Origin: Pseudomonadota bacterium
GTDB lineage: Bacteria > Pseudomonadota > Gammaproteobacteria > Burkholderiales > Thiobacillaceae
DNA length: 64,000 bases
Direction of reading: 5' to 3'
NCBI GenBank assembly: GCA_029558905.1
Contig: JAKQCX010000030.1
Location: 62,001 to 126,000 of the forward strand
Part shown: piece by piece, positions 46,840 to 63,355 of the stretch
How positions within the stretch are numbered: the stretch's first letter is position 1
How the letters are laid out: every line of letters begins with the position of its first letter
Translations under genes and position numbers: made by a program
Notes under the pieces: generated by a model
Database searches by the model: none
What the model was told of the DNA's origin: nothing
The model's input: the letters and a program-made list of their open reading frames with translations, nothing else

Positions 46840-46901
46840 TCCCGTGTTTTGATGTATCTCGTTGATTTCATTTGGAGGGATGGGAGGCGACACGAGGATG
46901 G

Positions 46902-46921
46902 ATGTTTCACGGATGAAACAT
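46902..46921. promoter_or_regulatory. Palindromic activator site 1 (ATGTTTCA-N4-TGAAACAT)
   Basis: A perfect 8+4+8 inverted repeat, ATGTTTCA-CGGA-TGAAACAT, placed as expected for an enhancer of the sigma-54 promoter at 46825-46839. The NtrC-type regulator gene at 48472 belongs to the divergent operon and is the natural candidate ligand. Confidence 0.7.
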
Positions 46922-46950
46922 GACCAGGCTCATCGGGTCTAACCCCATGA

Positions 46951-46981
46951 TTGACAACGGTCAGTCGGAGACGTTTAGAAT
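46951..46981 (+). promoter_or_regulatory. Sigma-70-type promoter of kinase-regulator pair 1
   Basis: TTGACA at 46951-46956 and TAGAAT at 46976-46981 with a 19-base spacer, a little longer than ideal. The predicted start near 46988 abuts the second palindromic site. Confidence 0.5.
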
Positions 46982-46988
46982 CCGCAAC

Positions 46989-47008
46989 ATGTTTCATTTT
47001 GGAAACGA
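46989..47008. promoter_or_regulatory. Palindromic site 2, degenerate copy at the kinase start
   Basis: ATGTTTCA-TTTT-GGAAACGA repeats the architecture of site 1 with a perfect left arm and five of eight bases kept in the right arm. It overlaps the predicted +1 and ribosome region of the kinase gene, where binding would be expected to reduce expression (autoregulation). Confidence 0.5.
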
Positions 47009-47011
47009 AGC

Positions 47012-48475
47012 ATGTCCAGCATCCGCGGCAAGGTCACTCTGGGCTATCTTGCCCTCGCCACGGGTGTGGGGGGGTTCGTGCTGTTTGCCTCTGCCGATCT
47101 GCGCTATCTGGAAAACCGGGTGCGCGAAGGGGTGGCGATCTCCGCCTTCCGCGATGGCGTGCAGGAACTGCGGCGTCACGAGAAGAACTACTTTCTCCAC
47201 CACGGCGCCGCCGAACTGGATGCGGCGCGTGCCCTGGCGAGCCAGCTGGTGCGCACGCTGAACGACGAGGCCGGGGCCCTGGCGGGCGTGGCGCGCGGGG
47301 ACGAACTGCCGGTCCTGCGCCGGACCATGCGGCGCTATCTGGATCTGATCGAGCAGCCCATCGAATTTGGCCAGCAGGGTGGCCCGTCGGCGGAGCCCGG
47401 CATACGCGCCGCGGGTCATGCCGTTTCCGTGGCGAGCGACCGGCTGGCGGGGCGTGAGCGCGCGTTCCTGGCGAGCGTGCTGCGCCAGTCCCGTCTGGCC
47501 CTGGTGGGGGGAGTGGGCATGGTGGTCCTGCTGGCCCTGGCCGGCGGGCATCTGCTCTACCGCGCCGTGGGACGGCCGCTGAAGCGCCTGGAGGATCAGT
47601 TGCAGCCCCTGGCCGAAGGACGCTTCCAGGCCTTTACCCAGGTTTCCGGAGACCGAGAGATCGTTTCTTTCACCGCCGCCCTCAACCGCATGCTGACGGA
47701 GCTCGATCTGCGCCGGCGCCAGGTGCTGCAGGCGGAAAGACTGGCGGCCCTGGGTACCCTGGCCTCCGGCGTGGCGCACGAGCTCAATAACCCCCTGGGC
47801 AACATCTCCGGCGCCTGCCAGATCCTGCTGGAGGAACTGGGTGGTCTGGATGCGCTGCCGGCCGGCACGCGCGTGACCCTGCTGACATGGCTCACCCAGA
47901 TCGACGACGAGACCGAACGCGCCCGCCGCATCGTGCGCACCCTACTGGACTACAGCCGCAAGCCGGGTCTGAAGGGCATGCCCTGCCCATTGCACGAGGT
48001 CCTGGAGAAGTCCCTGCTCCTGCTGCGCAGGCGGCTGCCGGGCGAGGACTGCGTGCGCCTCGACGTGCCAGCCGACCTGTGGGTCCGCGCCGACCCCCAG
48101 CGCCTGCAGCAGGTATGCATCAACCTCGTCCAGAACGCATTCGATGCCGGTGCCCGCGAAGTACGCATCCAGGCGCGACCGGGCTTGCCGGGCGACTGGC
48201 CTCCCGCGGACGCCGGCCTGGTGGTGGGCGCGGGCACGGGGCGGCAGGCGGTGCTCATCCGGGTGGAGGATGACGGACCCGGCATCCTGCCGCGGGAGCT
48301 GGACCACATCTTCGATCCCTTCTACACCACCCGGGAACCGGGCGAGGGCACGGGCCTGGGCCTCTACATCGTCAGCGAGATCGTGCAGGAACAGGAGGGC
48401 GCCATCGCCGTGCGCAGCGTCCCCGGGGCCGGCACCCGTTTCGAACTGTGGCTGCCCCGCGGGGAGGAGGTATGA
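47012..48475 (+). CDS. Sensor histidine kinase, NtrB-type, pair 1
   Basis: A 487-residue kinase. It has a membrane segment at about residues 8-28, a periplasmic helical sensor of about 130 residues containing LRRHEKNYFLHHG, a second membrane segment at about 163-183, and a HAMP-like linker. The His-box is LASGVAHELNNPLGNISGA (His about 256), and ATPase boxes are NLVQNAFDAGA, DDGPGILPREL and GEGTGLGLYIV. The periplasmic RRxEKNxFL motif is shared with the paralogue at 54171-55673 and resembles helical-bundle sensors of chemoreceptors. It is coupled to its regulator by an ATGA overlap. Confidence 0.9.
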   Translation: MSSIRGKVTLGYLALATGVGGFVLFASADLRYLENRVREGVAISAFRDGVQELRRHEKNYFLHHGAAELDAARALASQLVRTLNDEAGALAGVARGDELPVLRRTMRRYLDLIEQPIEFGQQGGPSAEPGIRAAGHAVSVASDRLAGRERAFLASVLRQSRLALVGGVGMVVLLALAGGHLLYRAVGRPLKRLEDQLQPLAEGRFQAFTQVSGDREIVSFTAALNRMLTELDLRRRQVLQAERLAALGTLASGVAHELNNPLGNISGACQILLEELGGLDALPAGTRVTLLTWLTQIDDETERARRIVRTLLDYSRKPGLKGMPCPLHEVLEKSLLLLRRRLPGEDCVRLDVPADLWVRADPQRLQQVCINLVQNAFDAGAREVRIQARPGLPGDWPPADAGLVVGAGTGRQAVLIRVEDDGPGILPRELDHIFDPFYTTREPGEGTGLGLYIVSEIVQEQEGAIAVRSVPGAGTRFELWLPRGEEV

Positions 48476-49839
48476 GCAGCCCTGCGCCCCCTCGTCTTCT
48501 GCTGGTGGACGACGAGGCCGCGGCCCTGAAGACCCTGGCCCACCTGTTCCGCAAGGCCGGGTATGAGGTGACAGCCCGGCAAAGCGGCCAGGCGGCGTTG
48601 CAGGAATTGCGCGCGCGGGAATTCGACGTGGTCCTCACCGATCTGCGCATGAAGGGCGTGGACGGCCTGGAGGTCTTGCGCCAAGCGCGGACGTTGCAGC
48701 CCGACGTGGAGGTCATCGTCCTCACCGGCCACGCCACGCTGGACTCCGCCGTGGCGGCCATGAAGGAAGGCGCCTTCCATTACGTGGCCAAACCCTATCG
48801 CCTGGACGAGGTGCGGCAGGTGGTGAAGAGCGCCCTGGACGTGGTGGGCCTGAAGCGGGAAAACCGCGATCTGCGCCGACGCATCGAGGGCTATCGGGAA
48901 CCGGTCAACATCATCACCCAGGACCCTGGGCTGCAGCGCCTGCTGGATACGGCCCGCCAGGTGGCGCCGACGGACTGCAACATCCTCATCAGCGGAGAAT
49001 CCGGTACCGGCAAGGAGCTCATGGCCCGCTACGCGCACCTGCACAGTTCCCGCGCCGGCCAGGCCTTCGTGGCCGTGAACTGCGGTGCCCTGCAGGAGGA
49101 ATTGCTCGCCAACGAGCTGTTCGGGCACGAAAAGGCTGCCTTCACCGGTGCCGACCGCATGAAGCGGGGCCTCATTGAGATGGCGGAGGGCGGCACCCTG
49201 TTCCTCGACGAGATTGCCGAGATGAGCCTGACCATGCAGGTGAAGCTGTTGCGGGTGCTGCAGGAGCGGGAGCTGATGCGTGTGGGCGGCACGCAGCCGG
49301 TGCGCGTGGATGTGCGCTTCCTGGCCGCCACCAACCGGGACTTGCAGGAAAACGTGGGCAGCGGCCGCTTTCGTGCCGATCTGTATTTCCGCCTGAATGT
49401 GGTGAACCTGACCCTGCCGCCCCTGCGCGAGCGGCGCGACGACATCCCCCTGCTGGCTTTCTACTTCCTGAAGAAATTCGCCCTGGCCATGGGCAAGCCG
49501 GTGGACGACATCGACCCGGAGGCCCTGAACTTGCTGGCCCGCTACGATTACCCGGGCAATGTGCGAGAGCTGGCGAACCTGGTGGAGCGGGGCGTGGCTC
49601 TGGCGCGGGGCAGTCTGCTGCAGGTCGCGCACCTGCCGGAAAGCCTGCGTCACCTGCATGTGCGCGTCGCCGCCGCACCCATTGCCATGGGCGAGTTCTC
49701 CAGCCTGGAGGCCAACGAGGCCGCCCACATCGCGCGCGTGCTGGCGCACACCGGCGGCAACCGCAATCAGGCGGCGGAAATCCTTGGCATCGACCGGGTC
49801 TCCCTGTGGCGGCGCATCAAGCGCTACGGCCTGGAGTGA
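48472..49839 (+). CDS. NtrC-family sigma-54 response regulator, pair 1
   Basis: A 455-residue regulator. Receiver: PRLLLVDDEAAALKTL, phospho-Asp in VVLTDLRMKGVDGLE, Lys in YVAKPYRLDE. AAA+ domain from about residue 140: Walker A ISGESGTGKEL, Walker B GGTLFLDEIAE. The sigma-54 contact loop reads KAAFTGA instead of GAFTGA. A Fis-type HTH forms the end (NRNQAAEILGIDRVSLWRRI). A GGGGAGGAGGT ribosome site lies in the end of the kinase gene. Likely targets are the palindromic sites at 46902 and 46989. Confidence 0.9.
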   Translation: MSSPAPPRLLLVDDEAAALKTLAHLFRKAGYEVTARQSGQAALQELRAREFDVVLTDLRMKGVDGLEVLRQARTLQPDVEVIVLTGHATLDSAVAAMKEGAFHYVAKPYRLDEVRQVVKSALDVVGLKRENRDLRRRIEGYREPVNIITQDPGLQRLLDTARQVAPTDCNILISGESGTGKELMARYAHLHSSRAGQAFVAVNCGALQEELLANELFGHEKAAFTGADRMKRGLIEMAEGGTLFLDEIAEMSLTMQVKLLRVLQERELMRVGGTQPVRVDVRFLAATNRDLQENVGSGRFRADLYFRLNVVNLTLPPLRERRDDIPLLAFYFLKKFALAMGKPVDDIDPEALNLLARYDYPGNVRELANLVERGVALARGSLLQVAHLPESLRHLHVRVAAAPIAMGEFSSLEANEAAHIARVLAHTGGNRNQAAEILGIDRVSLWRRIKRYGLE

Positions 49840-49863: not shown

Positions 49864-51987
49864 TCAGGCCCGCGTCGGCAGCAGGCAGAAGGCGTCTTCC
49901 CGTGCTTGCTCGCCCAGGCGTGCCTGAATGGCGGCGATGGCCTGATCCTCGGTGGCGAAGATGTTGTCCTGGCCGATCAGGTCGAACAGGCCGGTGGCGC
50001 GCATCACGTCCAGGATCTGCTTTTTCAGGCCCGAGAACACCACCTCCATGCCATTGCCGCGCAGGCGCTCCACCAGGTGGTGCACCACCTCCTCGCCGGA
50101 GGCATCCAGCTGGTTGATGGCATCGCCCACCACCAGCAGATATCGGGCATCCGGCTTGGCCGCGATCAGCTCCAGCACGGTGTCTTCAAAGTAGGCGATG
50201 TTGGCGAAGTACAGGGAACCGTCGAAGCGCATGGCGATGATGTACGGACTGGTGGGCAGGGTCGGATGGACCTTGATGTCCCGCAGGGTGCCATCGGCAA
50301 AGCGGCCGAGCTGGGCCACGCGCGGTTTCATGGTGCGGTACAGGTAGAGCACGATGGCCAGGCCCGCGCCGATCAGGATGCCCTTGTCCAGGTGCGGGGC
50401 GGCGATCAGGGTGATGACGAAGGTGACGCCGGCGACGATGCCGTCGAACCTGCTGGCCTGCCAGGTGTGCTTGAGGGCCTTGGGTGTGATCAGGCTGCTC
50501 ACCGCCAGCAGGATGATGACCGCCAGCGTGGCCTTGGGCAGGTGGTACAGGTAGTCGGTCAGGAACAGCAGGGTCACGGCCACGAACAGACCGTTGAATA
50601 CCATGGCGAAGCCGGTCCTGGCTCCGGCCTGCAGGTTGATGGCCGAGCCGGTGAAGGAGCCACAGGCCGGATAGGCCTGGAAGAACGCCCCCCCGATGTT
50701 GGCCAGGCCCTGGCCGATGAGTTCCTGGTTCGGGTCGAGGCGCTGCTTGGTCTTGGCCGCCAGGGCCTTGGCCATGGAGATGGATTCCATGAAGGCCACC
50801 AGGGCGATGATGAAGGCGGCGGAGAGCAGTTGCAGCATGGCATCCAGGGACAGGGGTGGCAGACGTAAGCCAGGCAGGCCGGACGGGACCTTGCCCACCA
50901 CATCGCCCCCGCTCACCAGCTTGATCTCCCCCTGCTCGATCTTCTTGATGTGCCATTGGCGCGTGTCGGATTCCGGGCCGACGGGCGCCTTGCCCGCCAG
51001 GTAGAGGGTGGCGGCCCCCCGCGCATCCGTGTCCACGCGCGTGAAGTCCAGCCTGCGGATGGCGTGCATGCGCGCCTTGTTTTCCGTTTCCAGGCCGGCG
51101 ATGTCCAGCTTGAGCACGGAGATGGCGTATTCCAGGTCCGCGGCGCCACGCGCGTCGCGGGTCTTGTGCGCCAGGCGCGCCTGGCTGGACAGGGCGGTGA
51201 CCCTGGCGCTCATCTCCTGGATGCGCCGGTCGGCTTCGGCATAGGCGCTCACCAGGGCCCGGGCTTCCGGATCGGCGATGTGCGCGGGGCTGGCGCTGAC
51301 CTTGCGCTCGAACCCCGTCAGGGCGCTGACGGCGATGGTCACCACCACGGCGATCAACACGGACAGCTTGGACAGGGCGGGGACCCTTTTCAAACCCAGC
51401 ATGAGCAGCAGTGCGAACACGGACATGGCCAGGGTGGGCAGATGGGTGTCGGGCAGGTAGCCGAACATCTCCCAGATGTCGTAGAGGAAGGAATCGCTGC
51501 GTCCCTTGGGGATGCCCAGCAGCATGTCCAGCTGCGACAGAGCGATGATCACCGCCGCCGCGTTCATGAAACCCAGGATCACCGGGTGGGAGACGAAGTT
51601 GACGATGCTGCCCAGCTTGATCACCCCCAGGCTGAACTGGATCACGCCCACCATCAGGGAGAGGAGCAGGGCAAGGCCGATGTATTCCTCGCTGAAAGGC
51701 ACGGCCAGGGGGGTGATGGCGGCCGCCGTCATGAGCGAGACGATGGCCACCGGACCGGTGGAAAGCTGACGGGACGAGCCCCACAGGGCGCCCAGGATGG
51801 CCGGCACGAAGGCCACGTACAGGCCGTAATAGACCGGCAGGCCGGATAGCTGCGCGTAGGCCATGGCCTTGGGCACCAGCACCAGGGCGCCGGTGATGCC
51901 GGCGATCATGTCACCACGCAGCAGGGTTGAGCTGATGGGAAACCAGGCCAGGAAGGGAAAGAGACGCAGCAGCAAGGGGTTGTTCAT
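49864..51987 (-). CDS. SulP-family transporter with coiled-coil insert and STAS (707 aa)
   Basis: A SulP protein: GDMIAGITGALVLVPKAMAY, GLYVAFVPAILGALWGSS, NQELIGQGLANIGGAFF. A hydrophilic insert occupies about residues 228-365, rich in Ala/Glu/Lys heptads (AEADRRIQEMSARVTALSS), between the two halves of the transport domain. The normal SulP pattern VGKVPSGLPGLRLP follows directly. A C-terminal STAS domain carries DASGEEVVHHL. It faces the gamma-carbonic anhydrase gene across an operator-like region, suggesting bicarbonate as substrate, though sulfate cannot be excluded. Confidence 0.88.
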   Translation of the reverse strand: MNNPLLLRLFPFLAWFPISSTLLRGDMIAGITGALVLVPKAMAYAQLSGLPVYYGLYVAFVPAILGALWGSSRQLSTGPVAIVSLMTAAAITPLAVPFSEEYIGLALLLSLMVGVIQFSLGVIKLGSIVNFVSHPVILGFMNAAAVIIALSQLDMLLGIPKGRSDSFLYDIWEMFGYLPDTHLPTLAMSVFALLLMLGLKRVPALSKLSVLIAVVVTIAVSALTGFERKVSASPAHIADPEARALVSAYAEADRRIQEMSARVTALSSQARLAHKTRDARGAADLEYAISVLKLDIAGLETENKARMHAIRRLDFTRVDTDARGAATLYLAGKAPVGPESDTRQWHIKKIEQGEIKLVSGGDVVGKVPSGLPGLRLPPLSLDAMLQLLSAAFIIALVAFMESISMAKALAAKTKQRLDPNQELIGQGLANIGGAFFQAYPACGSFTGSAINLQAGARTGFAMVFNGLFVAVTLLFLTDYLYHLPKATLAVIILLAVSSLITPKALKHTWQASRFDGIVAGVTFVITLIAAPHLDKGILIGAGLAIVLYLYRTMKPRVAQLGRFADGTLRDIKVHPTLPTSPYIIAMRFDGSLYFANIAYFEDTVLELIAAKPDARYLLVVGDAINQLDASGEEVVHHLVERLRGNGMEVVFSGLKKQILDVMRATGLFDLIGQDNIFATEDQAIAAIQARLGEQAREDAFCLLPTRA

Positions 51988-52021: not shown

Positions 52022-52054
52022 CGTGCATGATGATTGCATAATGCAACATGCACG
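52022..52054. promoter_or_regulatory. TGCAT-type palindromic operator between sulP and gamma-CA
   Basis: A perfect 13-base palindrome TTGCAT-A-ATGCAA (52034-52046) nested inside an outer CGTGCAT...ATGCACG repeat (52022-52028 and 52048-52054). The same TGCAT-N-ATGCA box occurs upstream of orf66 and kinase 2. No GG-N10-GC sigma-54 element is visible here, so control may be through a sigma-70 promoter. Confidence 0.65.
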
Positions 52055-52122
52055 TGAAAAATTGCACCATTTTAGCAAAGTCTGATACACCTGCCAGTTC
52101 CACGACCTGCCGAGGAGCCTCC

Positions 52123-52683
52123 ATGATCCGCCGCAACCCCAACGGTGACGTGCCCGTCGTGCATGAAACCGCGTTCGTCGATCCCACCGCCATCCTGTGC
52201 GGCAAGGTCCTCGTGGAGGCCAACGTCTTCATCGGCCCCTATGCGGTCATCCGCGCCGACGAGGTGAACGAGGCGGGTGAAATGGAGCCCATCGTCATTG
52301 GCGCCGGCTCCAACATACAGGACGGCGTGGTGATCCACTGCAAGGCCGGTGGTGGCGTGCGCATCGGCAAGGAGAGTTCCATCGCCCACCGCTCCATCGT
52401 GCATGGCCCCTGCCAGGTGGGGGATCGGGTGTTCATCGGCTTCAATTCGGTGCTCTACAACTGCACCGTGGGCGACGGCTCGGTGGTGCGCCACAACGCC
52501 GTGGTGGAAGGCTGCGGCGTGCCTCCCGGTTTTTATATCCCCTCCACCACCAACGTGCATTCCGACGAGGAACTGGCCCGCATCGTGCCCGTCACCGCGG
52601 ATCAGACCGGTTTCTCGGAAAGCGTGGCCCAGGCCAACCTTGAACTGGTGAGAGGCTATAAGCGCATCCGCAACGAGTTTTGA
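52123..52683 (+). CDS. Gamma-class carbonic anhydrase family protein
   Basis: A 186-residue left-handed beta-helix protein with hexapeptide repeats. It keeps the zinc-type histidines in NIQDGVVIHCKA and IAHRSIVHGPCQVGD, and has the Cam-like IRADEVNEAGEMEPIVIGAG. It should interconvert CO2 and bicarbonate. The start at 52123 follows CCGAGGAGCC; the frame extends 25 codons upstream through the operator and is not used. It is divergent from sulP, so both can respond to the same operator. Confidence 0.85.
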   Translation: MIRRNPNGDVPVVHETAFVDPTAILCGKVLVEANVFIGPYAVIRADEVNEAGEMEPIVIGAGSNIQDGVVIHCKAGGGVRIGKESSIAHRSIVHGPCQVGDRVFIGFNSVLYNCTVGDGSVVRHNAVVEGCGVPPGFYIPSTTNVHSDEELARIVPVTADQTGFSESVAQANLELVRGYKRIRNEF

Positions 52684-52821
52684 ATGGAGGGGAGCAGGGC
52701 CGGGCGGCCTTATCGGCATGCCCGCAAGGCCAGCATGGGGGCCGCAGGGAGCGGGCGGGGGAAGTCCGGGCCCCGGGCGGGATATCCATGATCTCCGCCC
52801 GTGTTCGGCTCCCGCGTGGCC

Positions 52822-54174
52822 TCAACCCTTCTCTTCCCCGTATTTCTTCAGCTTGCGCCACAGCGATACCCGGTCGATGCCCAGCAGCTGGGCGGCCAGG
52901 GTCTGGTTGCCGTGGGCCTCGGCCAGCACCCAGAGGATGTAGTCCTTCTCCTGTTCTTCCAGGGGGATGACCTTGCCGTCCCGCCGGCGGAAGGCGCGTA
53001 TGGACAGGTCGCGCAGGTCATCGGGCAGGTGGGCGGTTTCCAGGGTGTCGCCCTGGCACAGGGCCACGCCCCGTTCGATGATGTTCTCCAGCTCGCGCAC
53101 ATTGCCTGGGAAGTCATAGGCCTTGAGCAGGGCCAGGGCGTCCGCGGATAGGTCGCGCACGGCCTTGCCCATGACCGGAGCAGCGCGCTCCAGGAAGTGC
53201 TGGGCCAGCAGTGGGATGTCCTCGCGCCGCTGGGACAGGGGCGGGATGTGCAGGTTGACCACGTTCAGGCGGTAGTAGAGGTCCTGGCGGAAGCGGCCGT
53301 CCGCCACCCAGTCCTTCATGTTGCGGTTGCTGGCGGCGATGAAGCGTACGTCCACCCGCACCGGCCGGGTGCTTCCCAGGGGCAGTACTTCCTTCTCCTG
53401 GATGGCGCGCAACAGCTTGACCTGCATGGCCGGCGACATCTCCGTGACCTCGTCCAGGAACAGGCTGCCGCCGTGGGCGGCCTCCAGCAGGCCGGTCTTG
53501 CCCACGGCGCCGGTGAAGGCCCCCCGGGCATGGCCGAACAGCTCGTTGGCCAGCAACTCCTCGTTGAAGGCGCCGCAGTTGATGGCCAGGAAGGGGCCGT
53601 CCGGATGGGTACCCTGTGCGTGCACGTAGCGGGCGAAGAGCTCCTTGCCGGTGCCCGATTCGCCGGTGATGAGCACGTTGCAACCCGTGGGCGCCACCTG
53701 GCGCGACATGTCCAGCAGCCTTTGCATGCCGCCATCCCGGGTGATGATGGGCACCCGGCCACGGTAGGCATCGAGCTGCTCGCGCAGGGCGCGGTTTTCC
53801 CGCTTCAGGCGGATCTTTTCCAGGGCCTCGGCCACGGTCTGGCGCACCTCGTCCAGGCGGAAGGGCTTGGCGATGTAGTGGAAGGCGCCTTCCTTCATGG
53901 CCTCCACTGCGGATTCCAGGGTGGCGTAGCCGGTGAGCATGATGACCTCGATGTCCGGGTATTGCGCCTTGCAGCGGCGCAGCAGCTGCATGCCATCCAC
54001 CCTGTCCATGCGCAGATCGGTGAGCACCAGGTCGAAGGGCTGGGCATGCAGCAGGTCCAGGGCATGCACGCCACTCTGCGTAGCGGTGATCCGATGGCCC
54101 TCCCGGGTCAGCACGTGTTGCAGGTTGCGCAGGGCGATTCTTTCGTCGTCGACCAGCAGGATGCGTGCGCTCAT
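52822..54174 (-). CDS. NtrC-family sigma-54 response regulator, pair 2
   Basis: A 450-residue paralogue of the regulator at 48472. Receiver: ARILLVDDERIALRNL, phospho-Asp in LVLTDLRMDRVDGMQ, Lys in YIAKPFRLDEVRQTV. AAA+ domain: Walker A ITGESGTGKELFA, intact GAFTGA loop (GHARGAFTGAVGK), Walker B GGSLFLDEVTEM. Fis-type HTH: NQTLAAQLLGIDRVSLWRKL. The start overlaps the stop of kinase 2 (ATGA). The TGCAT-N-ATGCA boxes near 52035 and 55700-55800 flank this pair and are its likely targets. Confidence 0.92.
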   Translation of the reverse strand: MSARILLVDDERIALRNLQHVLTREGHRITATQSGVHALDLLHAQPFDLVLTDLRMDRVDGMQLLRRCKAQYPDIEVIMLTGYATLESAVEAMKEGAFHYIAKPFRLDEVRQTVAEALEKIRLKRENRALREQLDAYRGRVPIITRDGGMQRLLDMSRQVAPTGCNVLITGESGTGKELFARYVHAQGTHPDGPFLAINCGAFNEELLANELFGHARGAFTGAVGKTGLLEAAHGGSLFLDEVTEMSPAMQVKLLRAIQEKEVLPLGSTRPVRVDVRFIAASNRNMKDWVADGRFRQDLYYRLNVVNLHIPPLSQRREDIPLLAQHFLERAAPVMGKAVRDLSADALALLKAYDFPGNVRELENIIERGVALCQGDTLETAHLPDDLRDLSIRAFRRRDGKVIPLEEQEKDYILWVLAEAHGNQTLAAQLLGIDRVSLWRKLKKYGEEKG

Positions 54175-55673
54175 GGGGTATCCGTGGTTTGTTGCGCGTG
54201 CGCGGCGGGCAGGCGGATGTGGAACTCGGCGCCGCCGTTGACGCGGTTGGTGGCGACGATGCAGCCGCCGTGCTCCGCGATGATCTCGTAGGCGATGAAC
54301 AATCCCAGGCCGCTGCCCTGACCGACCGGCTTGCTGGTGAAGAAGGGGTCGAAGACCCTGGGTAGCAGCGCTTCGGGGATGCCGGGCCCGGTGTCGGCCA
54401 GGCTCAGGTCCACCACCGCGGCGCCCGGCCGGCACTGGCCCATGGGGGCAGGAAAGCGGTCGTGCGACGCGCCTGCCCGAGCCGCCCGGGCGTGGATGCT
54501 CAGCACGCCCGTCTTGCCCATGGCGTCGTAGGCGTTCACCAGCAGGTTGAGCAGCACCTGCTGCAGGCGTGGGCGATCGCCGCACACGGCCAGCCATGGG
54601 GCGATGTCCACGCGCACCTCCACGCCCGCCGGGCGCATGTTCCGGAGGAAGCGCAGGGTTTCCTGCACCAGGTCCGCCAGGTGCACGGGGACAGGCTTGA
54701 ATTCCCGCTCGCCGGCGTAGTCCAGCAGGGCGCGCACGATGCGCCGGGCCCGCAGGGTCTCGGCATCGATGTCCTCGATGAGCTGGCGCTGCAGGGTGCT
54801 CAGCGTGCCGTCCGGCACCTCCGCGTGTGCCCCCGGGTCCGGCGCGGGGGGGAGCTCCTCCTTAAGGATCTGCGCCGAGGAGGAGATGTTGGACAGGGGG
54901 TTGTTGAGCTCGTGCGCCACGCCGGAGAGCAGGGTGCCGAGGGAGGCCAGCTTTTCGGCGCGTACCAGGGTGTGCTGGCGCCGTTCCAGCTCGTCCAGCA
55001 CATGATTGAAGGCATCGGACAGGGATGCCAGTTCGCGTTCGGGGCCGTCCGCGCTCAGACGGGTAAGCTGGCCGCTGGCCACGGCCTGCATGCGCTGCTC
55101 CATGGCCTGCAGGGGGCGGGTCACCTGGCGCGCGGTGAGCAGGCCGGTGAGCACGAGAAAGACGGCCACCACTGCCAGGGACCAGAGCAGGGTGCGCTGG
55201 TGCGCGGCCAGGGCGGCATTCGTGGACCGGCGCTCTAGGCTGGACAGTCGCTCCCCCAGTGTGACGATGCGATTGCCCAGGCCACGCACCTCGCCGGCCA
55301 GCCGCTCGTCGCCTGCACGCCCGGCATGGGCCCGCATGGCGCGCTCGTAGCGTTCCAGATCCGCACCCAGGCCGGCGCTGGTACCGGCACCAGCCAGACT
55401 GTCCAGGGTATCCGCGTTGCGCCGCAGCAGTTCCCGTGCCCGCGCCGAAAAGCGGGCATGCTCGCTCAGGTCGTGGGCCTGGTGGTAGAGGAAATGATTC
55501 TTTTCGAAACGGCGCATTTCCAGGGTGGCGTCGAACAGTTCCGCCACCTTGCCGCCTTCCCGCGCCTTGTCGGCGATGCGCTCCAGTTCCACCAGTGCCA
55601 CGATCGCCAGGCCGACGATGAGTGCGGTGAGCGCGAGATAGACGAAGACGATCTTGGCTTGCAGGGAACGCAT
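54171..55673 (-). CDS. Sensor histidine kinase, NtrB-type, pair 2
   Basis: A 500-residue kinase with membrane segments at about residues 8-28 and 161-180, a periplasmic helical sensor with MRRFEKNHFLYHQ, a HAMP linker, His-box LLSGVAHELNNPLSNISSS (His about 254), and ATPase boxes NLLVNAYDAMG, DTGPGIPEALL and GQGSGLGLFIA. It is closely parallel to the kinase at 47012. The start MRSLQAKIVFVYLAL gives the expected first helix; the longer frame runs through the operator region. A CTGTTACACT extended -10-like element lies about 5 to 15 bases upstream of the start. Confidence 0.9.
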   Translation of the reverse strand: MRSLQAKIVFVYLALTALIVGLAIVALVELERIADKAREGGKVAELFDATLEMRRFEKNHFLYHQAHDLSEHARFSARARELLRRNADTLDSLAGAGTSAGLGADLERYERAMRAHAGRAGDERLAGEVRGLGNRIVTLGERLSSLERRSTNAALAAHQRTLLWSLAVVAVFLVLTGLLTARQVTRPLQAMEQRMQAVASGQLTRLSADGPERELASLSDAFNHVLDELERRQHTLVRAEKLASLGTLLSGVAHELNNPLSNISSSAQILKEELPPAPDPGAHAEVPDGTLSTLQRQLIEDIDAETLRARRIVRALLDYAGEREFKPVPVHLADLVQETLRFLRNMRPAGVEVRVDIAPWLAVCGDRPRLQQVLLNLLVNAYDAMGKTGVLSIHARAARAGASHDRFPAPMGQCRPGAAVVDLSLADTGPGIPEALLPRVFDPFFTSKPVGQGSGLGLFIAYEIIAEHGGCIVATNRVNGGAEFHIRLPAAHAQQTTDTP

Positions 55674-55695
55674 GGCGCGAGTGTAACAGGGGTGT

Positions 55696-55706
55696 TGCAT
55701 GATGCA
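55696..55706. promoter_or_regulatory. TGCAT-N-ATGCA box A
   Basis: TGCATGATGCA, with GTG and CAC arms extending the symmetry outward to 55692-55710. It lies about 70 bases upstream of the sigma-54 -24 element of the orf66 operon and next to the start of kinase 2, so it could serve both directions. Confidence 0.65.
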
Positions 55707-55754
55707 GCACCCAAGTAGGCATGGCCCCGTCATTACCATCGAAAAATCAATGGG

Positions 55755-55766
55755 ATGCATATGCAT
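55755..55766. promoter_or_regulatory. TGCAT-ATGCA box B
   Basis: A perfect 12-base palindrome ATGCATATGCAT, a version of the box without the central base. It lies directly upstream of the -24 element at 55774. Confidence 0.5.
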
Positions 55767-55773
55767 GACGGCT

Positions 55774-55788
55774 TGGCATGCATGCTGC
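55774..55788 (+). promoter_or_regulatory. Sigma-54 promoter of the orf66-usp-sulP-dab operon
   Basis: TGGCATG-CATG-CTGC matches TGGCACG-N4-TTGC with two changes and has exact GG-N10-GC spacing. Transcription should begin near 55800. A further degenerate box, TGCATGACGCA (55786-55796), overlaps the -12 region. Confidence 0.72.
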
Positions 55789-55822
55789 ATGACGCAACTT
55801 CCTCACACCAGGATCGTCAACC

Positions 55823-56023
55823 ATGCACCCGAACCCCCTCCAGACCCTGCTCGCCGAGCGCCTCCAGTCCGCGCGTGGCCTGGGCTGGGAGATGCCCGCT
55901 CCCAGCCAGGAACCCGGGGCCGTCCAAGCCGCGCGGACCCGTGGACGAAAAGGGGTCCGCGCAGCGCGCTGGCCCCGCATGCTGATGCCCGTCGTGCGCC
56001 GCCTCGGCCTGACGGGTGAATGA
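55823..56023 (+). CDS. Small basic protein heading the carbon-uptake operon
   Basis: A 66-residue protein (MHPNPLQTLLAERLQSARGL opening, Arg-rich middle, PRMLMPVVRRLGLTGE end). It begins about 23 bases after the predicted sigma-54 start, and its stop overlaps the next start (ATGA), which supports translation. It is not similar to anything I recognise. The ribosome site is weak (CCAGGA). It could be a regulatory or accessory subunit. Confidence 0.5.
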   Translation: MHPNPLQTLLAERLQSARGLGWEMPAPSQEPGAVQAARTRGRKGVRAARWPRMLMPVVRRLGLTGE

Positions 56024-56391
56024 AACGTCGGGTCGTCGTCGCCCTGCGTCCGGTGTCGCCCGTGGAGCGACTGCTGTCCGTGGGAGCCTCCCTGTGCCGG
56101 CGCATGGATGCTGAACTGGAGGTGTTGGCCGATCCGCGCCGGCCGGATTGGCGCGACCTCGAGACCCGTCTGGCGGCCCTGCGGGACGCGGGCGTCAGCG
56201 CGCGCCTGAGCTCCGCGCCTGGGCTGGACGCCAGGCAAGTGGTGGAGCATGCCCGTGGCCACGAATGCGTTACCACCGTGGTGGTGGATCGTCCCGCCGC
56301 CTGGGCCTCGGAAGGCACCGACCCCTGGGTCCGCCTGGACTGTCCCCTGGTGGCCGCCTCCGATCATCCCGATTTGCCCGAAGAAAAGTAG
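56020..56391 (+). CDS. Small USP-like protein
   Basis: A 123-residue protein with a Rossmann-like start (RRVVVALRPVSPVERLLSVG) and LDARQVVEHARGHECVTTVV, suggesting a shortened universal-stress fold without the ATP loop. It lies between the small basic gene (overlap) and sulP (12 bases), the third USP-like gene linked to an anion transporter in this window. Function unknown. Confidence 0.6.
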   Translation: MKRRVVVALRPVSPVERLLSVGASLCRRMDAELEVLADPRRPDWRDLETRLAALRDAGVSARLSSAPGLDARQVVEHARGHECVTTVVVDRPAAWASEGTDPWVRLDCPLVAASDHPDLPEEK

Positions 56392-56403: not shown

Positions 56404-58527
56404 ATGCAAAAATTCGCCCGCTTCCTGCCCTTCCTGCGCTGGTTCCCCCTGACCGGGGACACGGTCAAGGCCGATTTCATGGCCGGCATCACCGTGGCCC
56501 TGGTGCTGATTCCACAGTCCATGGCCTATGCCCAGCTCGCCGGCCTGCCGGCCTATTACGGTCTGTACGCGGCCTTCCTGCCGGTGGCCGTGGCCGCCCT
56601 GTGGGGTTCGTCCCACCAGCTGGGTACAGGGCCAGTGGCGGTGGTGTCCCTGCTGACCGCCTCCAGCCTGGCGGTGTACGCCACGCCGGGTTCGCCCGAC
56701 TTCGTCGCCCTGGCCATCATGCTGGCCCTGCTGGTGGGTGTCATTCAGCTGCTGCTGGGGGTGTTCAAGCTGGGGGTCATCGTCAACTTCCTGTCGCATC
56801 CGGTGATCGTCGGCTTCACCAACGCGGCGGCCATCATCATCGCCCTGTCGCAGGTGTCCAAGCTGTTCGGGGTGCCCATGGCGCGCAGCGAGCACTTCAT
56901 GCACGACATCGTCGGCGTGTTCGGACAGCTTGGCGATACGCACCTGCCCACCCTGGCCATGGGCATCGCCGCCATCGCCATCATGTGGGCCGTGAAACGC
57001 TTCGCGCCCAGACTGCCTGGAGTGCTCATTGCCGTGGCGCTCACCACCCTGGCGGCCTGGGGCATGGGCTTCGAGAAGAAGGCCACCCTGCACCCGGACG
57101 GTGTGGCCGATCCGCTGATCGTCGACATGCTCAGGGAATACGAGACCACGGCGGGACGCCTGGCCGAAATGAAGGACAAGGCCATGGCCAGTGACGCCGA
57201 GGCCAAGCGGCTGGAAAAACAGGCCGGCCACGATGTGCAGCAGGCGCTGACGCTCAATTATCGCGCCGACATGCTGCATTCCCAGGTCCATGCCCTGGAG
57301 GAGGCCAACGCCAAGCGCCTGCAGGACCTGCGCAGGCTCAGGTTCGAGCGTGAGGTGCGCGCCAATGGCGAGCCCGGCCTGCTGCACCTGGCCGGGACCG
57401 CGCCGATCGGGATGAAGACCGATGGCGGTGCCTGGAAGATCGCCACGGTGGCCCCGGGCGAGATCAGGCTAACCGGCGGGGGTGAGGTGGTGGGCGGCAT
57501 CCCCGAGGGACTGCCCAGTTTTGCCCTGCCCAGGTTCGATCTGGACAAGCTGGGCACCCTGCTGTCCGCTGCCCTGGTGATTTCCCTGGTGGGTTTCATG
57601 GAGGCCATCTCCATCGCCAAGGCCATCGCCGCGCGGACCAAGCAACGCCTCGATCCGAACCAGGAGCTGGTGGGCCAGGGCCTGGCCAACATCGTCGGCT
57701 CCATGACCCAGGCCTTTCCCGTATCCGGCTCCTTTTCCCGCTCGGCGGTGAACATGAATTCCGGCGCGCGCAGCGGCATGAGCTCGGTGTTCACGGCCGT
57801 GTTCGTGCTGCTTACCCTGCTGTTCCTCACCCCCCTGCTGTATCACCTGCCCCAGGCGGTACTGGCCGCCATCATCATCATGGCCGTGGCGGGACTGGTG
57901 AACGTGCGGGCCATCCGCCATGCCTGGCAGGCCAACCGGCACGACGGCATCGCCGCCGTGGTGACCTTCGTCGCCACCCTGGCCTATGCCCCGCATCTGG
58001 ACAACGGCATCATGGTGGGCGCCGGCCTGGCCCTTGTCCTCTTCCTGCTGCGCACCATGAAGCCGCGCGTGGCACAGCTGGGCCGCTTCAAGGACGGCAC
58101 GCTGCGCGACATCAAGGTGTATCCGGAACTGCCCACCAGCGAGCACATGGTGGCCATGCGCTTCGACGGCCAGCTCTATTTCGCCAACGTGTCCTATTTC
58201 GAGGACACGCTGCTGGCCACGCTGGCCGACCACCCCAAGGCCAGGTTTCTGCTGGTGGTGGGCGACGGCATCAACCAACTGGACGCGTCCGGAGAGGAAG
58301 TGATCCACCATCTGGTCAGCCGCCTGAAGGAAAACGGCGTCACCCTGGTGTTTTCCGGCCTGAAGAAGCAGGTCCTGGACGTGATGCGCGCCACCGGCCT
58401 GTTCGACCTGATCACCCAGGACAACATCTTCGCCACCGAGGATCAGGCCATCGCCGCCATCTACGAGCGCCTGGGGGACGAGGCCCGGGACGATCTGTTC
58501 TGTGCCCTCAAGCCGGCGATGGCGTGA
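56404..58527 (+). CDS. SulP-family transporter with coiled-coil insert and STAS (707 aa), paralogue
   Basis: Same length and architecture as the protein at 49864-51987: FMAGITVALVLIPQSMAYAQ, GLYAAFLPVAVAALWGSS, NQELVGQGLANIVGSMTQAF. An insert at about residues 230-365 is rich in heptads (LAEMKDKAMASDAEAKRLEK and HSQVHALEEANAKRLQDL), then VGGIPEGLPSFALP, and a C-terminal STAS with DASGEEVIHHL. It lies in a sigma-54 operon with a DabA/DabB pump, making bicarbonate uptake the best guess. Confidence 0.9.
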   Translation: MQKFARFLPFLRWFPLTGDTVKADFMAGITVALVLIPQSMAYAQLAGLPAYYGLYAAFLPVAVAALWGSSHQLGTGPVAVVSLLTASSLAVYATPGSPDFVALAIMLALLVGVIQLLLGVFKLGVIVNFLSHPVIVGFTNAAAIIIALSQVSKLFGVPMARSEHFMHDIVGVFGQLGDTHLPTLAMGIAAIAIMWAVKRFAPRLPGVLIAVALTTLAAWGMGFEKKATLHPDGVADPLIVDMLREYETTAGRLAEMKDKAMASDAEAKRLEKQAGHDVQQALTLNYRADMLHSQVHALEEANAKRLQDLRRLRFEREVRANGEPGLLHLAGTAPIGMKTDGGAWKIATVAPGEIRLTGGGEVVGGIPEGLPSFALPRFDLDKLGTLLSAALVISLVGFMEAISIAKAIAARTKQRLDPNQELVGQGLANIVGSMTQAFPVSGSFSRSAVNMNSGARSGMSSVFTAVFVLLTLLFLTPLLYHLPQAVLAAIIIMAVAGLVNVRAIRHAWQANRHDGIAAVVTFVATLAYAPHLDNGIMVGAGLALVLFLLRTMKPRVAQLGRFKDGTLRDIKVYPELPTSEHMVAMRFDGQLYFANVSYFEDTLLATLADHPKARFLLVVGDGINQLDASGEEVIHHLVSRLKENGVTLVFSGLKKQVLDVMRATGLFDLITQDNIFATEDQAIAAIYERLGDEARDDLFCALKPAMA

Positions 58528-60055: not shown

Positions 60056-63000
60056 ATGGGCCACGCGCATCCCCACACCAACGGGCAGGACGGGTCGCAC
60101 GCGCTGCTGCACCGGCTGGAGCAGGTGCTGCCCGCCCAGGCGCCCATCCAGGATTTCGTGCACCACAACACCCTGCACGGCTTCCAGCACCTGCACTTCC
60201 GGGCGGCCCTGGCCGCGGCCGAGGCCGCCACCGGCAACCAGGGCTATGAGACGCCGGAAGCCTTCCGCGCCTATTTCCGGCAGGGCCGCATCGATCTGTC
60301 GGACCTCAACGCCGCCCTGGATGAAACCCCGGAACTGGCGCCGGATGCGCCTGCGGTCGGACACATCACCCGCCGCCAGGTATTCCTGGCCGGCCTGCGC
60401 TTCGACCTGGAACCCTTGCCAGCGGCCGCCCTGCGCTGGCGGATGACGGAAGGCGGCGCGCTGCGCCGCTGTCATGACGACGTGCCGGCGGCAACCCGTC
60501 TGGTCCTGTTGACGCGGCAGGGTGGTGAGGAGGCGATGCTGACGGCCCTTTGGCAGGCCTGCGCCGCCGCCACCCGCGTGGCCCCGGCGATCGAGTCGCC
60601 CCCCGTGCACGAGTCCGAGGAGGCCGCCCTGCTCTGGGACCGGCATCGCGTCAAGCACGAGGCCCAGGCACGGCTCGATGGGCTCCTGGCGCGTTTCGGC
60701 AAGGACCTGAGCCTGCGTGGCCTGCTCATGCGCCTTGCCGGCGAGGACCTGATGCACGCCCTGCGGCCCTATCTGGTGCGTCATCTCGCCGCCCACCTGG
60801 ATCTGGGCCTGGCGGCCTGGCGCAATCCGGCTCGCGCACGCGGCTTCTACGCCGCCTGGCTGGACAGTGCTCGCCGCGATCCCTATTTCGGCTACTGCGA
60901 GCTGACGGGCTGGGACACGCTCCTGGAGCGCCTGCCCGAGGACGCCGAGACCTGCATCCCGCAGGAGCTGGATCGACTGGGCCTGCCGCAGACACGGCGG
61001 GCCGCCTACCTGGAGACCCTGGCCAAGGAGCTGCCGGGCTGGTCCGGCATGTTCCTTTGGCGCCACGGGCATCCGGGTTACGGGGGCGAAACCACGCCGG
61101 TGCACATGAGCGATTATCTGGCCGTGCGCCTGGTGCTGGAACGCCTCTATGCACAGCAGATCGCGGCTACCCATTTCAAGACGGAAGTCAGCCTGTTTGC
61201 CCTGCGCGGCTATCTGCAGCGCCATCCCGCGGAACTGCTGGTGCGTCTGCACCTCTTCGCCGAGGATATCGACCCACCCCTGCCGGAATGGCTGCAGGCG
61301 CAGGGCCACCGCCTGGTCTGGGAGGCCTGCGGCAGGGCCGGCGAGGAAGACGACGCCGACTGGCTCGCCGTGGCGCGGCTGATCCTCGATTCACACCCTT
61401 CCCCGCGGGTGGATACGGGCCGGGAGGTGGCGGAGGACGGGCCGCATCAGGCAGTCGATCCTCCTCACGTCCAACCGTTCCCCCACCCGCGCCGGAGGGG
61501 CGAGGCATGGTCCCTGTTCCTGCTCTGCCAGCATCTGGGTCTGCATGCCGGGGCCCTGGCCGAATTGGGCGAGCAGGCCCCCCGGGCCCTGCTCGCCTGC
61601 CTGGCGGAACTGACTCCCGAGCGCATGGGCTGGGTCTGGCTGCAGGCCTATGAGCGTCATTACCGCCAGGAGATCCTGGGGGCCCTGGCCGCCAATGCCG
61701 GGCGCGGTGCCTGGAAGACCCGGGATGAGCCACCCGTCGCCCAGCTGATGTTCTGCATCGATGACCGGGAAGAGGGCCTGCGCAGGTATCTGGAAGAAGG
61801 GACTCCAGGCGTGGAAACCCTGGGCGCGGCCGCCCACTTCAACGTGCCGCATGCCTGGCGCGGCCTGGATGCAGAGCAGGCCGTGGCCTTGAGTCCGGTG
61901 GTGCCCAGCGTGGTGGTACCGGCGCATGAGGTGCGGGAATTGCCTCTCGAGGGGGCCGATGGCGTGGGCATGTATGACCGCCACGTGCGTCGCCGCAGAC
62001 TGCGTCTGGACTGGAAGGCGCGCCTGATCCAGGGCACCCGCCTGGGCTGGATGACGCCCGCGTTCATGAGCCTGGCCGCGGCCCCCGTCACCCTGGGCGT
62101 GCTGCTCGGCAAGGCCTTCATGCCTGCCACCCTGGGCCGCCTGGTGGAACGCCTGCGTCTGGGCTTCGATATTCCCGTGGTCACGCGGATCGGCCTCAGC
62201 GCGCCCAACGACAGCCCCGAGGCGAAACCGGAGGCGCGCCGCCTGGGCTTCACCGACCTGGAGCAGGCCGACCGGGTGCAGGCCCTGTTGCGCAATACCG
62301 GTCTGACCCATGGTTTTTCTCCCCTGGTGGCCATCGTCGGCCATGGTTCCCACAGCCTGAACAACCCGCATGCCTCTGCCTACAGCTGCGGCGCCTGCGC
62401 CGGCCGCAACTCCGGGCCCAACGCACGCCTGGTGGCGGCCATGGCCAACCGGCCCGAGGTGCGAGCCCTGCTGCGGCAACGCGGCATCGACATTCCCGAG
62501 ACAACCTGGTTCATCGGCGCGGAGCACGATACCTGTGACGACATCGTCACCTGGTATGACGAGGTGATGGTGCCCGAGGCATTGAGACCCGCCCTGGGCC
62601 GGTTGCAGCAGGACATGCAGGCCGCCTGCCTGCTGCATGCGCGGGAGCGCTGTCGGCGTTTCGTGTCGGCGCCCCTGGAGCTGAGTCCGGAGGCCGCCTG
62701 GAAGCACGTCACCGGGCGTGCCAACGACTACTCCCAGGCCCGGCCGGAGCTGGGCCATGCCACCAACGCCTGCGCCTTCTTCGGACGCCGCGCCTTTTCC
62801 CGCGGGGCCTTCTTCGACCGGCGTGCCTTCCTGGTTTCCTACGATCCCAGTCAGGATCCGGAGGGCGAACTGCTGGAGCGGCACCTGGTCATCAACGGCG
62901 CGGTGGGAGCCGGCATCAGCCTGGAGTACTACTTTTCCAGTGCCAACAACGAACGCTACGGCTGCGGCACCAAGGTCATGCACAACATAGTCGGTCTGAG

Positions 63001-63355
63001 CGGCGTCATGCAGGGCGCCGCCTCCGACCTGCGCACCGGCCTGCCCCGGCAGATGATCGAGGTGCACGAGGCCATGCGCCTGCTGGTGGTGGTGGAGCAC
63101 AGACTGGACGTGCTCACTGCCATCTACCAGCGTCAGCCCGCCGTGCGGGAACTGGTGGACAACGAATGGGTGCAGCTGGTGGCCATCGACCCGGACAGCG
63201 GCGTGCTGCACCGCTTCCTGGTGGGTACGGGCTGGGTGGAATGGCGGCCGGAAGGCCCGGCGCCGGCCACGGTACCCACCTCGACGGACTGGGTCCGTGG
63301 CCGGCGCGAGCCGCTGCCGCCGGTGCTCATCGAACAAGGAGCGCGGGCGACATGA
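60056..63355 (+). CDS. dabA: DabA-type inorganic-carbon transport protein (DUF2309)
   Basis: A 1099-residue soluble protein of the DUF2309 family. The zinc site is intact: Cys567 and Asp569 in LMFCIDDREEG, His763 in VGHGSHSLNN and Cys778 in SCGACAGRNSG. The spacing of 2 and 15 between pairs matches the known DabA site. DabA works with a membrane NuoL-like subunit to hydrate CO2 vectorially and accumulate bicarbonate. It is a long form, with an extra region around residues 430-500. Its stop overlaps the dabB start. Confidence 0.92.
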   Translation: MGHAHPHTNGQDGSHALLHRLEQVLPAQAPIQDFVHHNTLHGFQHLHFRAALAAAEAATGNQGYETPEAFRAYFRQGRIDLSDLNAALDETPELAPDAPAVGHITRRQVFLAGLRFDLEPLPAAALRWRMTEGGALRRCHDDVPAATRLVLLTRQGGEEAMLTALWQACAAATRVAPAIESPPVHESEEAALLWDRHRVKHEAQARLDGLLARFGKDLSLRGLLMRLAGEDLMHALRPYLVRHLAAHLDLGLAAWRNPARARGFYAAWLDSARRDPYFGYCELTGWDTLLERLPEDAETCIPQELDRLGLPQTRRAAYLETLAKELPGWSGMFLWRHGHPGYGGETTPVHMSDYLAVRLVLERLYAQQIAATHFKTEVSLFALRGYLQRHPAELLVRLHLFAEDIDPPLPEWLQAQGHRLVWEACGRAGEEDDADWLAVARLILDSHPSPRVDTGREVAEDGPHQAVDPPHVQPFPHPRRRGEAWSLFLLCQHLGLHAGALAELGEQAPRALLACLAELTPERMGWVWLQAYERHYRQEILGALAANAGRGAWKTRDEPPVAQLMFCIDDREEGLRRYLEEGTPGVETLGAAAHFNVPHAWRGLDAEQAVALSPVVPSVVVPAHEVRELPLEGADGVGMYDRHVRRRRLRLDWKARLIQGTRLGWMTPAFMSLAAAPVTLGVLLGKAFMPATLGRLVERLRLGFDIPVVTRIGLSAPNDSPEAKPEARRLGFTDLEQADRVQALLRNTGLTHGFSPLVAIVGHGSHSLNNPHASAYSCGACAGRNSGPNARLVAAMANRPEVRALLRQRGIDIPETTWFIGAEHDTCDDIVTWYDEVMVPEALRPALGRLQQDMQAACLLHARERCRRFVSAPLELSPEAAWKHVTGRANDYSQARPELGHATNACAFFGRRAFSRGAFFDRRAFLVSYDPSQDPEGELLERHLVINGAVGAGISLEYYFSSANNERYGCGTKVMHNIVGLSGVMQGAASDLRTGLPRQMIEVHEAMRLLVVVEHRLDVLTAIYQRQPAVRELVDNEWVQLVAIDPDSGVLHRFLVGTGWVEWRPEGPAPATVPTSTDWVRGRREPLPPVLIEQGARAT

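Follow-up and report, generated by a model that had tools for sequence, protein, structure and literature searches.

What does a two-component system encoded between two genes for SulP-type transporters control, and in which direction does it act? The question is raised by a stretch of 64,000 nucleotides from a Thiobacillaceae bacterium (C17:62001-126000; hereafter the window), part of a genome of 2,605,569 bases in 35 contigs (89.8% complete) that contains an rpoN gene and a single match to the RuBisCO large subunit. The initial annotation had joined the transporter gene sulP1, a carbonic anhydrase gene, the regulator pair and a Dab operon through a common operator, TGCAT-N-ATGCA, into one carbon-uptake regulon under sigma-54 and an NtrC-type regulator. 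We arrive at a partly different answer, to which we assign a probability of about 0.6: the histidine kinase HK2 and the response regulator RR2 would form an NtrC-class dual regulator that activates the SulP2-Dab operon via sigma-54, represses sulP1 and probably also represses its own synthesis. The boxes, their spacing, their conservation and their linkage to the regulator are established by comparison with relatives. On the side of the regulator and the Dab operon the features are as follows.

52822..54174, minus strand: RR2, response regulator with receiver, sigma-54 AAA+ domain (GAFTGA, Walker A) and Fis-type helix-turn-helix (HTH) by Pfam; proposed owner of the boxes
54171..55673, minus strand: HK2, membrane histidine kinase with an all-helical sensor region, HAMP, HisKA and HATPase (Pfam)
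55680..55688, minus strand: possible extended -10 element TGTTACACT of HK2-RR2, 5 base pairs (bp) downstream of the box, read by eye
55694..55708, plus strand: putative upstream activating box GTTGCATGATGCAGC, centred 73 bp before the -24 element and adjoining the HK2 promoter; kept in relatives
55774..55788, plus strand: predicted sigma-54 promoter TGGCATGCATGCTGC of the orf66-...-dabB operon
55784..55798, plus strand: weaker box GCTGCATGACGCAAC over the -12 element and start, 10/12; possible governor site

Relatives of HK2 were drawn from 80 related genomes and a named genome collection. A cut of 300 bits, with a start within 5 residues, gave 41 upstream regions, of which 31 non-redundant kinase-side regions were left once those with identical first 150 bases had been removed. 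These 31 include two near-duplicates that were both kept (L041 and L042), two regions that belong to the paralogous HK1 type (L025 and L026) and several from distant HK2 relatives (40-47%); 7 of the 26 kinase loci from the named collection turned out to be other kinases and were excluded. For sulP1 a family set of 117 genomes was used, 23 of which carry an ortholog of at least 70% identity and near full length.

Which sequence, then, is the conserved element? The boxes annotated at 52035-52045 (TGCATAATGCA) and 55696-55706 (TGCATGATGCA) are both present, and an exact TGCATNATGCA occurs in the whole genome only at these two places (window 52035 and 55696), each in one of the two intergenic regions that had been named, with no site for the reversed-pattern control. 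The motif as first written is thus real at two sites, but the unit conserved in relatives is GTTGCA-N3-TGCAAC. Dyads were counted with one mismatch allowed and 20 mononucleotide shuffles as control: TTGCA-N3-TGCAA is found in 30 of the 31 kinase-side regions as against 11 for TGCAT-N1-ATGCA, and GTTGC-N5-GCAAC in 20 of the 23 sulP1 regions as against 9, while the best count for any dyad in shuffles was 5 and 4, respectively. With its coverage of 11 and 9 regions compared to 30 and 20, the original form of the motif was given up for the corrected dyads. Scored as a 15-mer out of 12 against GTTGCA-N3-TGCAAC, the sites at 52035 and 55696 both reach 11; the annotated box at 55786-55796 withstands this comparison with 10, whereas that at 55755-55766 scores 5, has a gap of 2 and is no box.

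The sigma-54 promoter annotated at 55774-55788 is borne out by the element TGGCATGCATGCTGC, which reads into orf66. An element of the TGG(C/T)A-N7-NGC type lies between the kinase and the divergent gene in all 31 regions, a count made without a separate control for the element alone, and the best box in each of them scores 10-12/12, a grade of at least 10 that shuffles under a dinucleotide model reach in 0.8 of 31. The centre of the proximal box falls at -70 to -74 relative to the -24 element in 23 regions and at -81 to -84 in 6, and the remaining 2 have a distal box only; a second box at about 150-200 bp tends to occur where the intergenic region is longer. Since the positions in the -70s and the -80s are one DNA turn apart, the spacing would suit a looping activator, and boxes placed 70-200 bp upstream of a -24/-12 promoter, as expected of NtrC-class sites, are found in 31 of 31. 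The weaker box at 55784 has a counterpart of at least 9/12 at the same place in 6 of the 31 regions, and elements resembling TGTTACACT are visible in the kinase-side regions of relatives (by eye).

Box and sigma-54 promoter together form a pattern that occurs at 38 places in 36 of the 117 family genomes (reversed control 0), and in the genome of the window at exactly one place, 55695. Thirty of these loci were fetched; 23 adjoin a relative of HK2 or RR2 (one of them, L077, at 40% identity), and 22 of the 23 also adjoin orf123 or sulP2. Three further loci are sox-type promoters, and four (L059, L081, L082 and L083) have none of the sought genes and were taken as chance matches.

This linkage bears on the question of which regulator owns the boxes, as a second, paralogous pair is encoded close by.

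47012..48475, plus strand: HK1, paralogous kinase (Pfam)
48448..49839, plus strand: RR1, paralogous sigma-54 response regulator (Pfam)
46904..46919, minus strand: RR1-type box GTTTCATCCGTGAAAC, 72 bp before the sigma-54 element at 46839-46825 (minus strand)

RR2 has the domains of the NtrC class, namely a receiver, an AAA+ domain with GAFTGA and a Fis-type HTH, and the motif GESGTGK was found as well. In NCBIfam 120 models are matched; at the 25 best it stays under the cut-off throughout, and its scores do not reach those of the named equivalogs (NtrC 372.5 bits against 558.6, GlrR 382.6 against 763, ZraR 402.6 against 760, AtoC 412 against 714). Across the 117 genomes HK2 (at least 52% identity) and SulP1 (at least 70%) occur together in 21, HK2 without SulP1 in 1, SulP1 without HK2 in 2 and neither in 93; the sole genome with HK2 only (G013) holds a SulP1 fragment. 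At two loci (L068 and L069) RR2 has no receiver domain and HK2 is missing, yet the box, the sigma-54 element and orf123 still adjoin; the AAA+-HTH part is 83-85% identical, and no SulP1 of 70% identity is found in these genomes, which are 58% and 86% complete. Such a receiver-less RR2 is possibly a natural constitutive activator.

That RR1 also or instead acts on the GTTGCA boxes might be suspected from its position next to sulP1 and from an HTH very similar to that of RR2. On its own side, however, HK1-RR1 is accompanied by a different box, GTTTC-N6-GAAAC, at -72/-73 before its own sigma-54 element in 9 of the 10 examined genomes that also hold RR2, and this box is missing on the RR2 and sulP1 sides, where the best matches reach 9 and 8 of 12; the GTTGCA boxes in turn adjoin orthologs of RR2. 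We therefore regard a role of RR1 at these boxes as improbable. Because of the co-occurrence of HK2 and SulP1, the linkage at L068 and L069 and the different box at HK1-RR1, RR2 is the likely owner, and the assignment of the boxes to the regulator at 52822-54174 in the initial annotation is upheld. Where an RR2 of this grade is missing (11 fetched genomes), the box at the corresponding place of the HK1-like region is nearer the GTTGCA type (8-11/12 against 6-8 for the other type), and the simplest reading of the comparison would be that the operators of the paralogs became insulated from each other, perhaps a single time in one genus. The letters of the HTH do not account for the two box types: RR1 has WRR and most RR2 have WRK, but the RR2 of L020 combines WRR with a GTTGCA box.

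As to the neighbouring pair itself, RR1 has AAFTGA in place of the canonical GAFTGA of RR2. HK1-RR1 face a row of minus-strand genes (40901-46997) with small open reading frames (ORFs) and a TauE/SafE permease, in which genes resembling a response regulator, a kinase and a SulP transporter can be made out by eye. With GTTTC-N6-GAAAC-type boxes and a sigma-54 element of its own, TGGCACGTGGCTTGC, in the region 46825-47011, the arrangement looks like a parallel circuit next door.

How do the boxes stand at sulP1? The features on this side are:

49864..51987, minus strand: SulP1, 707 residues, SulP and STAS domains with an insert of about 130 residues
52033..52047, minus strand: putative main sulP1 operator GTTGCATTATGCAAT, starting 21 bp after the -10 element
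52054..52068, minus strand: degenerate second box GGTGCAATTTTTCAC, directly after the -10 element and 21 bp from the main box; 8/12 by eye
52069..52077, minus strand: predicted extended -10 element TGCTAAAAT of sulP1
52083..52091, plus strand: possible -10 element TGATACACC of the carbonic anhydrase gene, by eye
52123..52683, plus strand: gamma-type carbonic-anhydrase-like hexapeptide protein (PF00132); best NCBIfam models CcmM and carb_anhyd, both below cut-off

A matrix trained on the kinase side, with a background of 6 sites of at least 12 bits in 123 kilobases, detects boxes of at least 12.5 bits at 22 of the 23 sulP1 upstream regions, the exception being L142; by simple matching 20 of the 23 reach 10/12. 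The boxes sit just after an extended -10 element (TGCTAAACT, TGCTAGAAT and similar), and the distance from the end of the -10 element to the start of the box is 0 in 9 loci, 21 in 9 and 22 in 5, L142 with no real box being among the 5. Several regions have boxes in both registers, which suggests that two regulator dimers could bind two turns apart over and after the sulP1 start. A convincing sigma-54 element is found at none of the 23 orthologs, the sole regular-expression match (L141) coinciding with the extended -10 element, nor in the 420 bp scanned before sulP1 of the window or before the carbonic anhydrase gene. One loose match, TGGCAGGGGCCATGC at 52415 (minus strand), falls within the carbonic anhydrase gene, some 430 bp upstream of sulP1; its TGGCA is not followed by the customary C/T, and the match was discarded. 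Since the box follows the extended -10 element by 0 or 21-22 bp and there is no sigma-54 promoter, its position, on a predicted sigma-70-type promoter, is that of a repressor. One type of box is thus found both over a sigma-70-type promoter, as far as the predicted -10 elements indicate, and upstream of a sigma-54 promoter, as in dual control of the NtrC kind.

The model we started from, in which RR2 activates sulP1, the carbonic anhydrase gene, the regulator and the Dab operon as one positive sigma-54 regulon, explains why the box is common to all these regions and is consistent with a box upstream of the likely carbonic anhydrase promoter. It does not fit the lack of a convincing sigma-54 element at the 23 sulP1 orthologs, and a box 0 or 21-22 bp after the -10 element is unexpected for an activator, so that we consider this model unlikely. 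Control through sigma-54 by an NtrC-type regulator is supported for the SulP2-Dab operon; its extension to a uniformly positive regulon is not. As for the carbonic anhydrase gene, some relatives in which the two genes are divergent have an element like TGATAAACC (by eye) that adjoins the sulP1 promoter in back-to-back orientation. The product matches the hexapeptide family and stays below the NCBIfam equivalogs (120.7 bits against 380 for carb_anhyd, 55.3 against 250 for gamma carbonic anhydrase).

For the dual regulator that we favour, the following course of events is proposed. RR2, whose direct binding and dependence on phosphorylation we infer together with the signs of control and the signal, would bind GTTGCA-N3-TGCAAC. 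Bound in the manner of an enhancer protein to one box or two, some 72 or 82 bp (and 150-200 bp) ahead of the -24 element, it would activate sigma-54 RNA polymerase and so switch on orf66-orf123-sulP2-nuoM-dabA-dabB, a predicted operon for energy-coupled uptake of inorganic carbon. On one or two boxes over or just after the sigma-70 start of sulP1, two DNA turns apart, it would act as a repressor, and the box beside HK2, next to a likely -10 element, would probably provide negative feedback on HK2-RR2. The net outcome would be a switch that trades SulP1 for SulP2-Dab.

Several observations weigh against this reading. Its support is wholly comparative, and the sequences compared are related by descent, so that the counts are not independent. 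The -10 elements were read by eye or by regular expression, to which three -10 variants were added after inspection of the regions, and the -35 elements look poor by eye. Of the two genomes that have SulP1 without HK2, only L142 (77% complete) has lost the box; L139 retains one of 14.1 bits, compared to 12.5-15.4 in HK2-bearing congeners. The expectation that the box vanishes where HK2 is absent is thus only half borne out, in what is a weaker test. At the carbonic anhydrase gene a box of at least 10/12 is present in only 4 of 13 upstream regions (window and relatives), and in 3 of these 4 the gene is divergent from sulP1 and shares its region. Membership of this gene is therefore unproven, and the shared operator of the initial annotation holds for the sulP1/carbonic anhydrase region, the regulator promoter region and the SulP2-Dab operon, with the carbonic anhydrase as its doubtful part. 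The separation of the two box types is confined to one genus, the second kinase of the tenth genome examined for HK1-RR1 (G043) fits neither the HK1 nor the HK2 class, and in G100, one of the 11 genomes mentioned above, an HK2-like kinase of 43% is accompanied by a box of hybrid type at the HK1-like gene. Across the order, 399 genomes were scanned, and the joint pattern turns up in 22 of them, the reversed control in 1; 12 of the 399 belong to the family of the window and account for 4 of the 22 matches, which leaves 18 of 387 in other families, and one of these genomes (G076, locus L205) holds an HK2 relative.

Nor are all boxes meaningful. The original pattern with two mismatches shows no enrichment in the window, with 29 sites against 32.3 expected, so that only near-perfect boxes are informative, and an unconserved 11/12 box at the genome's own aprM-like and aprB genes shows that single boxes mean little. 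Both points would suit the view that the boxes are ordinary palindromes for another factor, such as a nucleoid protein, which stand at promoter distance by chance. We give this view hardly any credence in the face of conservation in 31 of 31 and 22 of 23 regions with fixed spacing and a reversed-pattern control that is empty in 117 genomes. The box in question (C32:48924, locus L120) lies about 131 bp before the gene preceding aprB, which we take to be aprM-like, and reaches at least 10 in only 2 of 30 orthologs; we read it as a probable chance or species-specific site. Genome-wide, TTGCANNNTGCAA with up to two mismatches has 428 sites compared to 187 for a reversed control of different composition, which makes the numbers uninterpretable. 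Beyond the two window boxes, eleven sites with 0-1 mismatch were inspected, and three of them are accompanied by a suitably oriented TGGCA-type element. At C8:8073 (L119, 8073-8500) a 9/12 box precedes TGGCATTGATCATGC by 92 bp; small exported-protein-like ORFs and a further pair of kinase and NtrC-type regulator lie downstream, and this region is possibly another sigma-54 unit. At C2:57319 (L121, C2:57156-57331) a 9/12 box is separated by 155 bp from a sigma-54-type element on the other strand, TGGCACGTATGTTGC, before an exported-protein-like ORF, and at C8:2211 a 10/12 box has a TGGCA-type element at +117, after an aprA gene.

If HK2-RR2 is a dual switch, what does it switch, and in answer to which signal? 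The operon read from the sigma-54 promoter contains:

55823..56023, plus strand: orf66, small protein without a family; its LxERLQSARGLGW-like stretch recurs at the operon head in several relatives
56020..56391, plus strand: orf123
56404..58527, plus strand: SulP2, 707 residues
58605..60053, plus strand: NuoM-like proton-translocating subunit
60056..63355, plus strand: DabA (PF10070, E 9.3e-225)
63352..64000, plus strand: DabB-like frame, NuoL-type by eye, running off the end of the window; named from the operon order

The former name of orf123, usp, has to be abandoned, as a Usp domain match was not found and the protein belongs to no family in Pfam or NCBIfam. DabA is recognised as an inorganic-carbon transporter protein with 748.9 bits for PF10070 against a cut-off of 25. 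In both SulP proteins (49864-51987 and 56404-58527) an insert of about 130 residues (approximately 228-360) splits the transporter halves; in SulP1 it is modelled as a helical hairpin with strands, in a structure model that is too weak for use (mean predicted local distance difference test score, pLDDT, 68.7). Among relatives the payload of the operon varies. At L036 it consists of sulP2-nuoM-dabA and a further frame; at L044 (1519-7002) an ORF, orf123 and sulP2 are followed by two NuoL/M-type subunits flanking a NuoH-type one, a Hyf-like set in place of NuoM-DabA-DabB; at L041 it comprises orf123, a small ORF, TauE, a carbonic-anhydrase-like gene and a SulP of 546 residues. Weak NuoM matches occur at similar places in several other relatives. 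The Dab link is thus real in the genome of the window yet variable, the constant part being HK2, RR2 and SulP1.

From its gene content a carbon-uptake regulon is plausible. A sulfur signal remains an alternative because sox-type promoters in relatives have the same box and because of a TauE gene: the SulP proteins would move or exchange sulfur anions, and the same circuit might answer a sulfur oxyanion such as sulfate, sulfite or thiosulfate. The sox-type genes stand behind the same type of box and a sigma-54 element at L078, L080 and L086, SoxA being confirmed by NCBIfam for L078 only, and the TauE/SafE gene belongs to the equivalent operon of L041. It also speaks for such a signal that SulP1 and SulP2 pass the general SulP cut-off with scores far under that of BicA (109.9 and 116.4 bits against 880). 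It is harder to reconcile with DabA, the DabB-like frame and NuoM in the operon, with the Hyf-like proton-pump subunits of L044 and with the carbonic-anhydrase-like gene beside sulP1. Moreover, the only sox locus with an adjoining regulator (L080) has an NtrC-type protein whose best match is RR1, at 41%, and not RR2. We hold a sulfur signal to be a serious possibility, if clearly the less probable one.

As to the sensor region, residues 1-240 of HK2 yield an all-helical model (mean pLDDT 85.7), for which the six best solved structures in Foldseek are all NarQ (E 6.3e-5 to 3.8e-4); R54 and R55 are kept in each of the 26 rows. The sequence profile instead places the QseE kinase first among solved structures (chain 9m08_C, E 2.9e-6), so that a NarQ-type ligand is suggested by the fold matches alone, and binding of bicarbonate would be a guess. 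It is tempting to go further and, as a long shot, to view HK2 as a periplasmic sensor of inorganic carbon with a NarQ/QseE-like fold that reads a planar oxyanion, for example bicarbonate, in partnership with SulP1. RR2 would then decide whether the cell uses SulP1 or an energised uptake machine, SulP2-Dab or SulP2-Hyf, and when active would shut down the partner of its sensor, and HK2-RR2-SulP1 would be the core to which the sigma-54 operon is attached as an exchangeable payload.

Little is known about the means by which chemolithoautotrophs perceive inorganic carbon and select among several transporters, and the control of their inorganic-carbon genes of which we know is of the LysR type. CcmR exerts such LysR-type control, and LysR-type regulators form a class unrelated to RR2; RR2 would share with CbbR and CcmR the control of inorganic-carbon genes and differ from them in promoter type. 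CbbR is reported to control carbon fixation and uptake genes (PMC6458275). In Thiomicrospira pelophila, according to a study from 2025, only one transporter is upregulated under carbon limitation, three explanations are offered, and few chemolithoautotrophs are said to have been studied in this respect (PMC12628692). Term searches gave no match for NtrC, two-component, RpoN or LysR in that study, for NtrC or two-component in PMC10880623, for bicarbonate, SulP or carbonic anhydrase in a sigma-54 regulon survey (PMC12316311), and for operon, LysR, promoter or transcription in the DAB2 structure paper (PMC13144422). Among the matches listed from the open-licence literature, judged mostly from titles and the starts of abstracts, we recognised no description of sigma-54 or NtrC-type control of SulP or Dab genes, and the assignment of an NtrC-class regulator with a predicted two-way action to these genes is new in this sense. 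The proposed switch has a defined box, its signs at two transporters are predicted to be opposite, and variants without the receiver exist in nature. It can therefore be tested gene by gene, and if it holds true it would offer an inducible promoter for the engineering of carbon uptake.

Among known systems, the DAB/DAC complexes likewise combine DabA (PF10070) with a DabB/NuoL-type partner frame, and the operon described here differs from them by NuoM, SulP2 and the sigma-54 promoter. The GlrK/QseE-GlrR system of E. coli, in which GlrR is the sigma-54 partner of QseE, resembles ours in that the QseE chain 9m08_C is the best solved relative of HK2 by profile; it is unlike in that RR2 stays below the GlrR cut-off (382.6 against 763 bits) and in that the top six fold matches of HK2 are NarQ. 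TspS-TspR, which acts on sox-II in Acidithiobacillus caldus, is also a sigma-54-dependent two-component system encoded beside its target in a sulfur oxidiser and provided with an upstream activator sequence, but its published box, TGTCCCAAATGGGACA, is another one, its target is sox and its proposed signal is thiosulfate (PMC6335251). The closest parallel in mode of action is NtrC at glnA of E. coli, which represses the sigma-70 promoters glnAp1 and glnLp and activates the sigma-54 promoter glnAp2, so that here, too, one enhancer-binding regulator unites activation through sigma-54, repression at sigma-70 promoters and control of its own synthesis (PMC3870243). Judged by its score (372.5 bits against 558.6), RR2 would work like NtrC without being NtrC. 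The two systems differ in sensor and targets, and in the locus analysed here the promoters predicted to be repressed and activated serve two different transporters.

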